Assembly: GCF_010119205.1 (NCBI RefSeq)
Contig: NZ_WRXM01000002.1
Location: 116,982 to 180,981 of the forward strand
Reading direction: 5' to 3'
Length of the DNA stretch: 64,000 nt
Source: Haloarcula limicola
GTDB taxonomy: Archaea; Halobacteriota; Halobacteria; Halobacteriales; Haloarculaceae
Shown here: one piece after another, positions 6,346 through 58,096 of the stretch
How the letters are laid out: the number at the start of each line of letters is the position of its first letter
Numbering within the stretch: position 1 is the first letter of the stretch
Made by a program: the position numbers and the translations under genes
The notes under the pieces: generated by a model
The model's input: only the letters and a program-made list of their open reading frames with translations
Databases searched by the model: none
Told to the model about the DNA's origin: nothing

Positions 6346-7191
6346 TTACTCCGTGAGGGTTAGACAGGCGAGGGAGGCGAACATCGCTTCTTCCGTTCGC
6401 ACCACCTCGCTGCCCTGGTTCGGAACCGTATTCAGCCAGAGGTCGAACCCTGTGGGGTCGTCGCCTGTCTGGTCTCCGCCGACGGAGCCCGGGTCCACGT
6501 CGAGTATCGACGGTAACCCCCGCTCGGGTGCTCCGAAGGCGACTGTCAGGCCGCCCTCGGCGTCCCGGCGCTCGACCAGCTGGCCGAGACGCCGCGTCGT
6601 CGCCGGCTCACCGTATCGCGATGACGCGATGGTGAGTCCGGCGTCGTCACGCGAGAGTGCCGCATCGAGGTCCGCGGTAACGACGTCGAACCCCGGCGTG
6701 GGGTGATCGACGAGTTTCGCCCGGACCGGCCGTCGCGAAGAGACCCTGACGGTTACGCGCTCCCCCTCCGCCGCTTCCATTCCGTCTGGAACGGGGAGGG
6801 AGATCGGGTGTTGCATGCCGCAATTGACCCGGACGCGCCCATCAGCTCCGACCTCGGTCACGATTCCCTGTCTTAACGACCCCGAACCCTCAGATCCGGA
6901 GCCGGTCTGTGAACGCACGCGGAGCGGCGGCAGGACGCCGACGTACTCCAGTTCGTCCCGCTTGCCCCACATCTCCTTTCGGAGGTGCGGGGGCGTCGCG
7001 GCGTACCGCAGCACGGTTTCGACGAACCCGTCTTCCCACTTGCCCGCCCCGTCTGGGTCGGGGAACACTGTCAGCCGATCGGCCCGGAAGACGGTGGCCG
7101 CGCGGGCCACGTATCCGAGCTTGCGAGTCGCCTCGCGGCGGTCTTCGGCTTCCCGTGTGAGGGAAGACGGCACGAGTACGCTGGTCGTCAT
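6346..7191 (-). CDS. SPOUT-family RNA methyltransferase (COG2106-like)
   Basis: This 281-residue protein is assigned to the archaeal SPOUT methyltransferase family with an inserted OB-like domain. The N-terminus MTTSVLVPSSLTREAEDRRE and RKLGYVARAATVFRADRLTV form the first part of the knot. Residues 60-110 hold PPHLRKEMWGKRDELEYVG, the middle (about 115-170) looks like a small beta-barrel insert (GIVTEVGADGRVRVNCGMQH), and the C-terminus AFGAPERGLPSILDVD plus LWLNTVPNQGSEVVRTEEA matches the SAM-binding knot. The ATG at 7191 is preferred because the upstream reading frame has no family similarity. A TATA-like element lies about 60 bp upstream. It heads the ribosomal operon with only 4 bp to rpl3, so an rRNA target is a reasonable inference, but the substrate is not visible. 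Confidence 0.85.
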   Translation of the reverse strand: MTTSVLVPSSLTREAEDRREATRKLGYVARAATVFRADRLTVFPDPDGAGKWEDGFVETVLRYAATPPHLRKEMWGKRDELEYVGVLPPLRVRSQTGSGSEGSGSLRQGIVTEVGADGRVRVNCGMQHPISLPVPDGMEAAEGERVTVRVSSRRPVRAKLVDHPTPGFDVVTADLDAALSRDDAGLTIASSRYGEPATTRRLGQLVERRDAEGGLTVAFGAPERGLPSILDVDPGSVGGDQTGDDPTGFDLWLNTVPNQGSEVVRTEEAMFASLACLTLTE

Positions 7192-7524: not shown

Positions 7525-7595
7525 GCGCTGGTAGTGTAGTGGTATCACGTGACCTTGCCATGGTCACAACAGGGGTTCAAATCCCCTCCAGCGCA
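7525..7595 (+). tRNA. tRNA-Gly (GCC anticodon)
   Basis: A complete cloverleaf of 71 nt: acceptor GCGCTGG pairs with CCAGCGC with discriminator A at 7595. The D arm contains TAGTGTAGTGGTATCAC, the anticodon stem TGACC/GGTCA closes the loop TTGCCAT (anticodon GCC), and the T arm is AGGGGTTCAAATCCCCT. No intron and no encoded CCA. It reads glycine GGC/GGU codons, abundant in this GC-rich genome. A partial copy of its 3' end follows at 7720-7741. Confidence 0.97.
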
Positions 7596-7668
7596 TTTCT
7601 ACGGCGAACAACTTCGGCGAGCACCGCGTAGCGTGTGCTCGCGATCGCGTGAGCCGTGAAATCGTACT

Positions 7669-7717
7669 GGAATTTGAACCCTATCAGTCGCGCGCAGCGA
7701 AGCGAGCACGTCTGATT
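7669..7717 (+). repeat. tRNA-associated hairpin segment, Gly copy
   Basis: This segment lies between tRNA-Gly and its 3' copy. It contains CCTATCAGTCGCGCGCAGCG (7680-7699) and a block ending GAGCACGTCTGATT (7701-7717). The same 20-nt block and 17 bases of the second occur downstream of tRNA-Leu at 57655-57674 and 57731-57747. The ends can pair (ATCAG/CTGAT and TTTGAACC/GGTTCAAA), so the unit may fold as a long hairpin with the T-loop copy in its 3' arm. No reading frame is evident. Confidence 0.75.
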
Positions 7718-7719
7718 CC

Positions 7720-7741
7720 GGTTCAAATCCCCTCCAGCGCA
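7720..7741 (+). repeat. Partial copy of the tRNA-Gly 3' end
   Basis: Twenty-two bases starting GGTTCAAATCC and ending CAGCGCA are identical to the last 22 bases of tRNA-Gly (7574-7595), including the discriminator A. The rest of the tRNA is absent. The copy starts exactly at the GG before the T-loop. Upstream, at 7669-7680, GGAATTTGAACC is an imperfect inverted version of the T arm, with a hairpin between (ATCAG at 7683-7687 against CTGAT at 7712-7716). Confidence 0.9.
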
Positions 7742-7775
7742 TCTCCTACGACCTTTTTCGTCGTCGGGTTTCCTC

Positions 7776-21466: not shown

Positions 21467-22005
21467 ACCGTCGGAAGGGACTCCCCGGGTTTATCGTTTC
21501 TCCCGTGTGCTTCCGAGGGGCAACCGTCTTGCCGCCGCGTCCGGTAGGGTCGCCCGGCCGATGACGACGGCGCGTTCCGAGCCGCGGTGACTCCGCGGCG
21601 GTGACGAACCCTATGAGTGCCGAGGCCGACTCCCGACCGGCGTCTCGGTCGGCCGTTCTCCGAAATCACTTCCGGACAGCGCAGCGCCGGTCGGCGACTC
21701 TTCGCTCGGTCGCCGGGTGACCGTCATCGGGTCGGTCGATGCGCCGGCGACCCCCGCTACCGTCTGGTATGCCCATACAGGCCGGCTGTTCAATGACGTG
21801 ATCCCCTAACGGAAAGACGACGTTTTCTCCGTCGACGCGACGGCTTCGTTCGCCGCGGTCATCTCACTCGCCCATCAGAGCCGGGCGGCCTCGCCGTCGC
21901 GGGGCCGGCGTCACTGCCGGGGAGCACGGTGTGTCAGCGCCAGTCACGATCGGAGAGATTTCGAACAGCGTTTTCCGACCCGGGCCCCAGTTACGACTTG
22001 AGAAG
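21467..22005. other. Long gene-poor interval
   Basis: Between the lipoprotein start and the next gene, reading frames are short and lack family features. The left end holds the promoter of the lipoprotein gene. The centre is GC-rich with several short inverted repeats (for example CGACCGGCGTCTCGGTCGG near 21634). I see no RNA gene or mobile-element remnant in it. Confidence 0.5.
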
Positions 22006-39392: not shown

Positions 39393-39494
39393 GGGGTTCT
39401 AAGACGTGACTCTCGACAGTGAGATATAGAGATGAGGCGGCTGGGGAGCTGTGACCCCAGTTCTCGACCGGCAAGAAACCGGCCGAAATGTGGA

Positions 39495-39518
39495 TGGGCC
39501 AACGCGGATTGTGAACCG
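39495..39518 (-). repeat. Partial copy of the tRNA-Ile 3' end
   Basis: On the minus strand GGTTCACAATCCGCG runs on through TTGGCCC to a final A at 39495. This repeats the T-loop and acceptor 3' side of tRNA-Ile (39631-39704) with one base inserted in the T-loop. No other tRNA parts are present. It lies downstream of the tRNA in the same orientation. A partial inverted T-arm (CAAATCCGC on the plus strand, near 39566-39574) lies between. Confidence 0.85.
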
Positions 39519-39630
39519 GAGGAAGACGCTCGTCTCGCTACGCTCGACGCTGCGACTTCCAGGGCACAAATCCGCTCGGGTTCATTTTTACGGACTCACG
39601 ACTCACTCCGTTCGTAGTTCATCCGAAAAA

Positions 39631-39704
39631 TGGGCCAACGCGGATTTGAACCGCGAACCTCCCGGTTATCAGCCGAGCGCTCAACCTGATTGAGCTATTG
39701 GCCC
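39631..39704 (-). tRNA. tRNA-Ile (GAT anticodon)
   Basis: A complete 74-nt cloverleaf. Acceptor GGGCCAA pairs with TTGGCCC, discriminator A. D arm GCTC...GAGC, anticodon stem CTCGG/CCGGG with loop CTGATAA (anticodon GAT), T arm CGCGG TTCAAAT CCGCG. No intron. A run of five T follows the 3' end and could terminate transcription. Upstream, CTTTTCTATGCC (minus strand, about 39735-39747) is a possible TATA element. Confidence 0.97.
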
Positions 39705-39786
39705 AGGCGAGCGCGTTTTGGTGTATCCGAGGGGCATAGAAAAGGGTAACGTTTCGGAACCCCGGGTGAGAAACCGCACCAGGGCG

Positions 39787-57512: not shown

Positions 57513-57597
57513 GCGAGGGTCGCCTAGCCTGGCCAATGGCGGTGGGCTTAAGACCCGCTCCCGTAGGGGTCCATGGGTTCGAATCCCATCCCTCGCA
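57513..57597 (+). tRNA. tRNA-Leu (TAA anticodon)
   Basis: An 85-nt class II tRNA. Acceptor GCGAGGG pairs with CCCTCGC, discriminator A. The D arm has TAGCCTGGCCAATGGC; the anticodon stem GTGGG/CCCGC encloses CTTAAGA (anticodon TAA). A long variable arm TCCCGTAGGGGTCCA precedes the T arm ATGGGTTCGAATCCCAT. It reads UUA/UUG leucine codons. At least three tRNA fragments follow it. Confidence 0.96.
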
Positions 57598-57645
57598 TTT
57601 TCCGACTCGAACGAACGTGAGAGTCGTGAAAATCTAACCGATGGC

Positions 57646-57747
57646 GATTCGAAGCCTATCAGTCGCGCGCAGCGGGTGCGCGGTTCGAGCGAAGCGAGAA
57701 CCGCGAAGCGAACGGCGTAGCCGTGAGCAGAGCGAGCACGTCTGATT
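57646..57747 (+). repeat. tRNA-associated hairpin segment, Leu copy 1
   Basis: This segment lies between tRNA-Leu and its first 3' copy. GATTCGAAGC (57646-57655) is an inverted T-loop-like block. CCTATCAGTCGCGCGCAGCG (57655-57674) and AGCGAGCACGTCTGATT (57731-57747) are identical to the segment behind tRNA-Gly. The middle is longer here (about 56 bp with GCGAAGCGAG-type repeats). ATCAG and CTGAT can pair. Confidence 0.75.
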
Positions 57748-57749
57748 TC

Positions 57750-57771
57750 GGTTCGAATCCCATCCCTCGCA
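57750..57771 (+). repeat. tRNA-Leu 3' end copy 1
   Basis: Starting GGTTCGAATCCC and ending CCTCGCA, 22 bases match the last 22 of tRNA-Leu. The sequence before the GG is not tRNA-like. The copy carries the T-loop, acceptor 3' half and discriminator. Confidence 0.9.
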
Positions 57772-57812
57772 TGAGTGCGCGGCGCAACTCCGCGCCGCGC
57801 CGAATCGTCCGG

Positions 57813-57880
57813 ATGGGTTCGAATCACGGAAATCTGAACGCAGTGAAGATTTGCTTCGGGTTCGAATCCCATCCCTCGCA
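57813..57880 (+). repeat. tRNA-Leu 3' end copy 2 with preceding hairpin
   Basis: ATGGGTTCGAATC at 57813-57825 repeats the start of the tRNA-Leu T arm. Then AAATCTGAACGCAGTGAAGATTT (57830-57852) can form a hairpin, and 57858-57880 (starting GGGTTCGAATCCC and ending CCTCGCA) is a second full 3' end copy. The arrangement is the same as in copy 1 with a different inner hairpin. Confidence 0.85.
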
Positions 57881-57891
57881 CTTTTGCGGCG

Positions 57892-57987
57892 AACACTCCG
57901 TGAGCCGCAGATGCAGCCGTTGAGATTCGAACTACGGCAGACCGAGCGAAGCAAAGTCTGGCATCGAGTGAGAATCCCATCCCTCGC
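57892..57987 (+). repeat. tRNA-Leu 3' end copy 3, degenerate, with preceding hairpin
   Basis: GAATCCCATCCCTCGC at 57972-57987 repeats 16 bases of the tRNA-Leu 3' end without the T-loop GGTTC. Upstream AGATTCGAAC (about 57922) is the inverted T-loop-like block and CAGAC/GTCTG makes a hairpin. This seems to be an older, decayed unit. Nothing else is seen up to the kinase gene at 58097. Confidence 0.8.
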
Positions 57988-58096
57988 GACTTCCGACGAG
58001 GGATCGAGCGGTAGGTTTCGATACCGCGACACGACGGCCGCCACCTTGTCTGGACCTGCAACGGACTTTTAACCCTCACGCGCGGAAAGCAGGGAA

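Follow-up and report, generated by a model that had tools for sequence, protein, structure and literature searches.

Hairpins of variable sequence that are kept by their structure and stand in arrays are familiar from the REP and BIME palindromes and from the attC sites of integrons. Haloarchaea carry short, gene-free palindromic repeats of their own, which include the PATE, SMR and MITE sequences of Haloquadratum walsbyi; in the available part of their description these are dispersed, have terminal inverted repeats or near-terminal palindromes, and show links to IS605 or transposases (PMC3119063). The t-elements of Haloferax volcanii, as far as the accessible portion of the source describes them, fold like tRNAs and are cleaved by RNase P and tRNase Z (PMC4946936). 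In Haloferax, the excerpt at hand reports hairpins upstream of 503 termination sites, one tested structure of which terminated transcription (PMC7237163). Archaeal attB sites are usually found at tRNA 3' ends, according to the part of the source available (PMC8371274), and template switching between inverted repeats is described, in an excerpt likewise, as homogenising their arms and inverting their spacers (PMC8604942).

The locus considered here lies in a 64,000-nucleotide stretch of the Haloarcula limicola genome (NZ_WRXM01000002.1, positions 116,982 to 180,981), and this whole stretch is referred to as the window. An initial annotation had interpreted an array of tRNA-Leu 3' fragments in it as the product of repeated rounds of insertion at a tRNA end.

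Organization of the tRNA-Leu(TAA) array

Each unit of the array follows the same order, namely hairpin A, an inverted copy of the T-arm, hairpin B, and a direct copy of tRNA nt 52-73 (Table 1). A unit takes about 110 nt, and those of the window measure 108-174 nt. The direct copies and the tRNA 3' end form a single direct-repeat family of four members, located at 57575-57601 in the tRNA and at 57749-57775, 57858-57884, and 57966-57992 in the copies. Over the length of the tRNA 3' end GGTTCGAATCCCATCCCTCGCA, the copies match at 22/22, 22/22, and 18/22 positions, and the three tRNA-Leu 3' copies of the initial annotation are thus real. RNA folds also confirm hairpins of like layout between the copies, of which unit 3 is the weakest (z against dinucleotide shuffles of -1.47, compared with -3.71 for unit 2 and -2.26 for the first hairpin). 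That each copy comes after a hairpin of its own holds good, but the presence of two hairpins (A and B) in every unit and of the inverted T-arm had been missed. Unit 2 folds with about 11 bp between the inverted arm and the T-arm (loop and stem) of the copy, and hairpin B forms the apex. The last copy had been regarded as decayed; 4 of its 22 positions are indeed changed, but its TGAGAATCC variant is met again, in other Haloarcula genomes at the orthologous units and, as TGA-, behind tRNA-Arg(TCT) and tRNA-Arg(TCG) of the same genome, and it is therefore a recurrent variant. Hairpin B of unit 1 holds a double hairpin nested in its apex (about 57676-57731), whereas the same module is plain-looped in a relative (locus L093), so that hairpins seemingly grow by insertion at the loop tips.

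Within the array, ARAGORN and the Rfam tRNA model call the full tRNA alone and no further tRNA-like fold. A scan of the whole window with Rfam found no match in the array at the gathering score beyond that tRNA, and a known Rfam RNA family was rejected as a candidate on this ground. Elsewhere in the window, at 21556-21627 and 6746-6845 (-), an sR-tMet box C/D RNA and an L4-Archaeoglobi ribosomal leader scored above the Rfam gathering score.

Table 1. tRNA genes of the window and the parts of the units behind them (positions in the window)
Feature	Position	Strand	Basis
tRNA-Leu(TAA), array anchor	57513..57597	+	ARAGORN; Rfam RF00005
Unit 1 hairpin A (TTTTCCGACTCgaacgaacgtgaGAGTCGtGAAAA)	57598..57644	+	fold, z -2.26
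Unit 1 inverted T-arm copy CGATTCGAA	57645..57653	+	sequence
Unit 1 hairpin B (AGTCGCGCGC..CACGTCT type), extra double hairpin nested at apex	57654..57749	+	sequence
Unit 1 direct copy of tRNA nt 52-73, 22/22	57750..57771	+	direct-repeat search
Unit 2 hairpin A	57772..57814	+	fold
Unit 2 inverted T-arm copy GGGTTCGAA	57815..57823	+	sequence; fold pairs inverted arm with copy
Unit 2 hairpin B (AAATCT gaacgcagtga AGATTT)	57824..57858	+	sequence, fold
Unit 2 direct copy, 22/22	57859..57880	+	direct-repeat search
Unit 3 hairpin A (TTTTGCGGCgaacactccgtgaGCCGCA)	57881..57922	+	fold
Unit 3 inverted T-arm copy AGATTCGAA	57923..57931	+	sequence
Unit 3 hairpin B (CAGAC cgagcgaagcaaa GTCTG)	57932..57966	+	sequence, fold
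Unit 3 direct copy, 18/22, TGAG variant	57967..57988	+	direct-repeat search
tRNA-Gly(GCC), second window anchor	7525..7595	+	ARAGORN
Unit behind tRNA-Gly(GCC): hairpin A, inverted T-arm 7670-7678, hairpin B, copy 7720-7741 (22/22)	7596..7741	+	sequence, fold
tRNA-Ile(GAT), third window anchor	39630..39705	-	ARAGORN
Unit behind tRNA-Ile(GAT), copy 39494-39515 (18/22)	39494..39629	-	sequence; fold z -2.47

Units behind other tRNA genes of the genome

Two other tRNA genes of the window are followed by a unit of their own, and the one behind tRNA-Gly(GCC) folds well (z of -4.26 for 7596-7740). The copies are specific to the tRNA that they follow. By a strict test (at least 15/18 nt matching, within 300 nt 3' of the tRNA), 19 of the 43 tRNAs of the window genome have a downstream copy of their own end and 24 have none, and swapped tRNA/region pairs give 28/1804. 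Similarly, Haloarcula amylovorans (G455) has such a copy at 13/44 tRNAs against 16/1890 swapped pairs. A looser parse, which requires the inverted arm too, yields 21 arrays in the window genome and 13 in H. amylovorans, and a similar layout was seen behind many of the 43 tRNAs when the downstream stretches of the window genome were printed.

Several structured elements of other kinds were met beside tRNA genes. From 7753-7769 onward, a second element that starts with CTTTTTCKTCGTCGGGT comprises several hairpins; it has 7 exact occurrences in the genome, and 3 are directly behind tRNAs (Gly-GCC, Ser-GGA, and Arg-TCT); one in H. amylovorans separates tRNA-Arg(CCG) from a copy of that tRNA's 3' end. 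At C1:157068-157375 of the window genome (L041), a duplicated stretch behind tRNA-Leu(CAA) contains half a tRNA-Leu, the variable arm of which holds two hairpins; the extra 225 bp are absent from H. amylovorans, exactly at the tRNA end. A third unit type of the same genome, in the order of inverted acceptor copy, hairpin, and copy beginning AATCCC, was found behind tRNA-Arg(CCT), tRNA-Ala(CGC), and tRNA-Ala(GGC) (L016, L017, and L427).

Distribution across Halobacteria and beyond

The units are spread over the whole class. The T-arm-hairpin pattern GATTYGAA-N(22-52)-GTTCRAATC occurs in 284 of 292 Halobacteria genomes and 75 of 77 genera, and its reversed control in none of the 292; this control (0/292), together with the swapped-tRNA control, rules out an effect of chance or composition. 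In a phylum-wide draw with the pattern one base longer, 31/33 Halobacteria and 4/163 other genomes were positive. All 5 pattern places of the window genome are behind tRNAs. When these 5 and another 29 loci from the 292-genome survey were fetched, 29 of the 34 were at most 457 nt downstream of a tRNA, 2 were inside a tRNA-Ser, which can match the pattern by itself, and 3 had no tRNA. Among the last, L083 sits in apparent coding sequence and was taken as chance, L059 has no tRNA, and L074 is behind a tRNA-Val-like 3' end, beside a frame judged by eye to be integrase-like. The tRNA-Leu(TAA) gene was present in 54 of the 80 loci of named genomes, with at least one downstream copy (at least 13/17 within 400 nt) in 29 and none in 25. 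As these 25 orthologues and 24 of the 43 tRNAs of the window genome lack a copy, no unit is essential at any given tRNA.

The units were not found in phage records, where the sole match was one of 26 nt to a tRNA-Leu, and carriage by phages was rejected on this account. Plasmids gave short hairpin matches only. A scan of viral contigs (IMG/VR) returned at least 80 loci, and among those listed, the ones above 50% GC were mostly inside apparent bacterial tRNAs; also among those listed is L125 (13744-13921 of its contig), a tRNA-Glu with a hairpin unit, perhaps from a provirus or host flank. On a Haloarcula halophila plasmid (L428, NZ_CP119561.1:239857-242331), 20 tRNA genes are called in 2.5 kb, and a haloarchaeal double hairpin interrupts the anticodon arm of an apparent further tRNA.

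Loop motif, orientation and fold

The hairpins share a common apical loop, GA-RC-GNA-GY-GA, the inner pair of which is G-C in 44, A-T in 22, G.T in 7, and A.C in 5 of 78 distinct hairpins. Unusual stability marks tandem GA/GA mismatches and GNA triloops, d(GCGAAGC) among them, and the apical loop motif resembles this very stable mini-hairpin. The motif has a fixed orientation with respect to the tRNA. Around 183 tRNAs, GARCGNAGYGA occurs downstream 88 times in sense and 19 times in antisense, and 3 times upstream. Within hairpin B of 189 parsed units, it is in sense in 79, in antisense in 1, and in neither form in 109, and the sole antisense unit is on the strand opposite to the only tRNA of its stretch.

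The fold also favours the sense strand, which folds better in 151/189 units with RNA energies and in 145/189 with DNA energies. Mismatches in the stems are G.T in 78 and A.C in 39 cases, against 23 and 28 in shuffles. Compensatory changes are frequent in hairpin B: family i has 242/272 standard pairs and 36 double changes (maxima in 500 shuffles of 228 and 24), and family ii has 283/300 and 19 (maxima of 272 and 12), counts which come from related sequences, so that the excess over shuffles is not a probability. The 79:1 ratio of sense loops, the better sense folds, and the preponderance of G.T over A.C in the stems point to the sense strand as the acting one and tend to favour RNA. T-run terminators were also considered as a discriminating feature, with no clear difference between tRNAs with and without units.

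Correspondence between the arms and the neighbouring tRNA

The arms track the tRNA in front of them, even when it is unusual. For example, the unusual T-arms of tRNA-Thr(GGT) with CGGAATTTGAA and of tRNA-Arg(CCG) with GCGAGGGATTTGAA are copied faithfully, and tRNA-Asn of H. amylovorans has CAGGGCTCGAA for the T-arm TTCGAGCCCTG. Among the 189 units, of which 103 come from pattern-chosen stretches and 86 are unbiased, tRNA and copy have the same T-loop purine, with the complementary pyrimidine in the inverted arm, in 97 (A-A-T) and 72 (G-G-C) cases, and the result is the same in the 86 unbiased units alone. Pairing at this site is 0.93 against 0.48 expected from units of other tRNAs; along the inverted arm it stays above expectation up to about nt 11 and ends before the acceptor part. 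In 9/189 units the copy departs from the tRNA in the T-loop purine; 6 of these have an inverted arm complementary to the copy, and the other 3 have T.G. The boundaries of the copies in the 86 unbiased units are sharp, from nt 52 to the mature tRNA 3' end. Likewise, among tRNA-Leu(TAA) lineages, at informative sites, i.e., those where the tRNA of a lineage departs from the commonest sequence, the copy has the base of its own lineage at 70/74 and the commonest base at 2/74. A polarity of decay along the arrays proved weak, with perfect copies in 34/68 first, 7/15 second, and 1/3 third units of the unbiased set.

Turnover at orthologous tRNAs

Behind the orthologous tRNA-Leu(TAA) of 12 Haloarcula genomes, the copies number 3, 1, 2, 1, 0, 1, 2, 2, 1, 0, 1, and 1 (18 of 30 loci, which had no match to the tRNA pattern, were left out). 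This range of 0 to 3 within one genus supports the repeated turnover that the initial annotation had proposed, and the constancy of array number over species that it had set against turnover is not seen. Counting the tRNAs with a copy in the window genome, in H. amylovorans, or in both gives 25, of which only 7 belong to the last group. Whole modules are shuffled as well. At tRNA-Leu(TAA), the window genome has a1b1-a2b2-a3b3, H. amylovorans a2b2 with a truncated a1, and another genome (G461) a1b2'-a2b3 with a truncated a3; a swap of A and B modules is also present at tRNA-Ser(TGA). Haloglomus halophilum and Halorubrum vacuolatum have tandem units that are nearly identical, which shows that duplication is one source of the gain of units. 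The arrays are better accounted for by tandem duplication and module shuffling than by the insertion of integrative elements.

Origin of the units

The genome does contain integrated elements at tRNA genes, and the units are independent of them. On contig C4, a 7.8-kb stretch with an integrase frame (L426) follows tRNA-Thr(CGT); its attR, CCCTCCACCGGCT, is acceptor-only and about 13 nt long. Straight after this attR there is a unit of A, inverted arm, B, and copy, which in H. amylovorans adjoins the tRNA directly. Similarly, at tRNA-Ala(GGC) of the same contig there is a 7.2-kb stretch (L427) whose integrase match is weaker and falls short of the Pfam cut-off; a tRNA copy (an attR longer than that of tRNA-Thr) closes it, and a unit-like stretch comes next. 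The order of A, inverted arm, and B was not found at the ends of either element. As both real elements are tRNA-proximal to the units and have ends without such hairpins, a view of the units as integration scars is not supported; integration displaced them and did not make them. Between the copies of the window there is no integrase or cargo gene, for which units of 108-174 nt have no room.

The proposal of the initial annotation, that the units are scars of repeated tyrosine-recombinase integration at the tRNA 3' end, could appeal to the usual position of attB, as given in the available text (PMC8371274), to direct copies that stop at the tRNA end as an attR does, with the attB direct repeat present, and to the integrases of the genome. 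It is nevertheless very improbable and already largely refuted: the two real elements lack such hairpins at their ends and lie between tRNA and unit, and the units, gene-free and about 110 nt long, stand behind a whole range of tRNAs at the same time, each with an inverted arm specific to its tRNA. A local scar at one tRNA is ruled out by the genome- and class-wide spread and by the displaced units behind the real elements. A purely mutational origin, in which replication slippage and template switching at tRNA genes would make, homogenise, and delete functionless hairpin repeats, is unlikely. Direct repeats would explain duplication and deletion, modules are shuffled at direct and inverted arms alike, and template switching is described, in the excerpt available, as homogenising arms and inverting spacers between inverted repeats (PMC8604942); yet inverted spacers, which it should generate, are nearly absent (79 sense to 1), the loop and internal-loop motifs are conserved class-wide, fold and G.T versus A.C are biased to the sense strand, and the units are restricted to Halobacteria.

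The units could also be self-spreading hairpin cassettes, with folded single-stranded DNA or RNA entering tRNA 3' ends and apical hairpin loops, and copying 22 nt of the target, by means of a putative enzyme that is integron-, HUH-, or Cas1-like in its logic. This is rather unlikely, even though unit boundaries are precise at the mature tRNA end, whole units are gained or lost at one tRNA, and similar modules (identity up to 0.89) occur at different tRNAs with their arms swapped. The double hairpin at the hairpin B apex of window unit 1, where the relative has a plain loop, the similar hairpin in the anticodon arm of the plasmid tRNA, and the likeness of the loop motif to the very stable d(GCGAAGC) mini-hairpin are in keeping with it too. 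Against this, no enzyme was found, the units were missing from the phage records and plasmids gave short hairpin matches only, the arms would need remaking for each tRNA, and tandem duplication explains part of the gains. It is distinctly unlikely that tiny gene-free hairpin cassettes of a previously unknown class land at haloarchaeal tRNA 3' ends, spread from tRNA to tRNA and into apical loops via folded single strands, rewrite both arms, and form integron-like arrays that turn over between species.

A proposed structured tRNA trailer

The explanation that we favour, tentatively and somewhat short of calling it probable, is that the array is a transcribed structured tRNA trailer in tandem, multiplied and homogenised by short-repeat recombination or template switching. 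The fold would work in RNA that is read through from the tRNA gene, as a helix between the inverted arm and the T-arm of the copy, capped by hairpin B, and the unit would most likely be a trailer that forms the 3' end or insulates (terminator-like). Recombination or template switching between the short repeats may gain, lose, and shuffle units, and the same process may keep the arms matched to the tRNA, since recombination of a mismatched copy into the tRNA gene would be harmful. That inverted spacers are so scarce suggests that something selects the sense form. Counting against the trailer reading, the sense strand folds better with DNA parameters too (145/189). The many tRNAs without a copy, and T-runs that do not clearly tell tRNAs with units from those without, count against it as well. 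Against a terminator role, the acceptor part (nt 66-73) is unpaired in the unit yet copied exactly, which such a role leaves unexplained; recombination with the tRNA is favoured as what would uphold it.

The genome examined would have an undescribed structured element, with arms copied from the adjacent gene, at roughly half of its tRNA genes, and nearly every sampled haloarchaeal genome would have it at tRNA genes as well. Should it be transcribed, tRNA expression in model archaea would have a feature shared by a whole class; should it be mobile, it would represent a novel sort of minimal mobile DNA. In both cases, concerted evolution, template switching, and hairpin growth could be studied in a natural system that evolves fast. 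Copies of tRNA 3' ends in haloarchaea are, as a caution, not proof of past integration.

Comparison with known systems

The units share with the attL and attR of archaeal tyrosine recombinases a direct repeat of the tRNA 3' end that stops at the mature end; they differ in having no integrase or cargo between the copies, in their tRNA-specific inverted arm and paired hairpins, and in their tandem arrangement of about 110 nt. As with REP, BIME, and attC hairpins, those of the units vary in sequence, keep their structure, and stand in arrays, but their arms are copies of the neighbouring tRNA. Like PATE, SMR, and MITE, they are short, gene-free, and palindromic; unlike these, they are tied to tRNA 3' ends and carry local tRNA copies, and they are not dispersed over many kinds of sites, 29/34 loci being behind tRNAs. 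The t-elements, too, are tRNA-related haloarchaeal sequences near processing enzymes, whereas the copies in the units have nt 52-73 only, pair their T-loop into a helix, and have no acceptor stem. The hairpins at Haloferax termination sites are comparable in standing upstream of RNA 3' ends, and the available part of that account describes no tRNA copies or arrays (PMC7237163). No published description of tRNA-tail hairpin arrays was found in the literature searched, which left out most subscription papers. The element appears to be an undescribed, class-wide structured element of haloarchaea, new as an element type and set apart from PATE, SMR, and MITE and from t-elements by its defining features.
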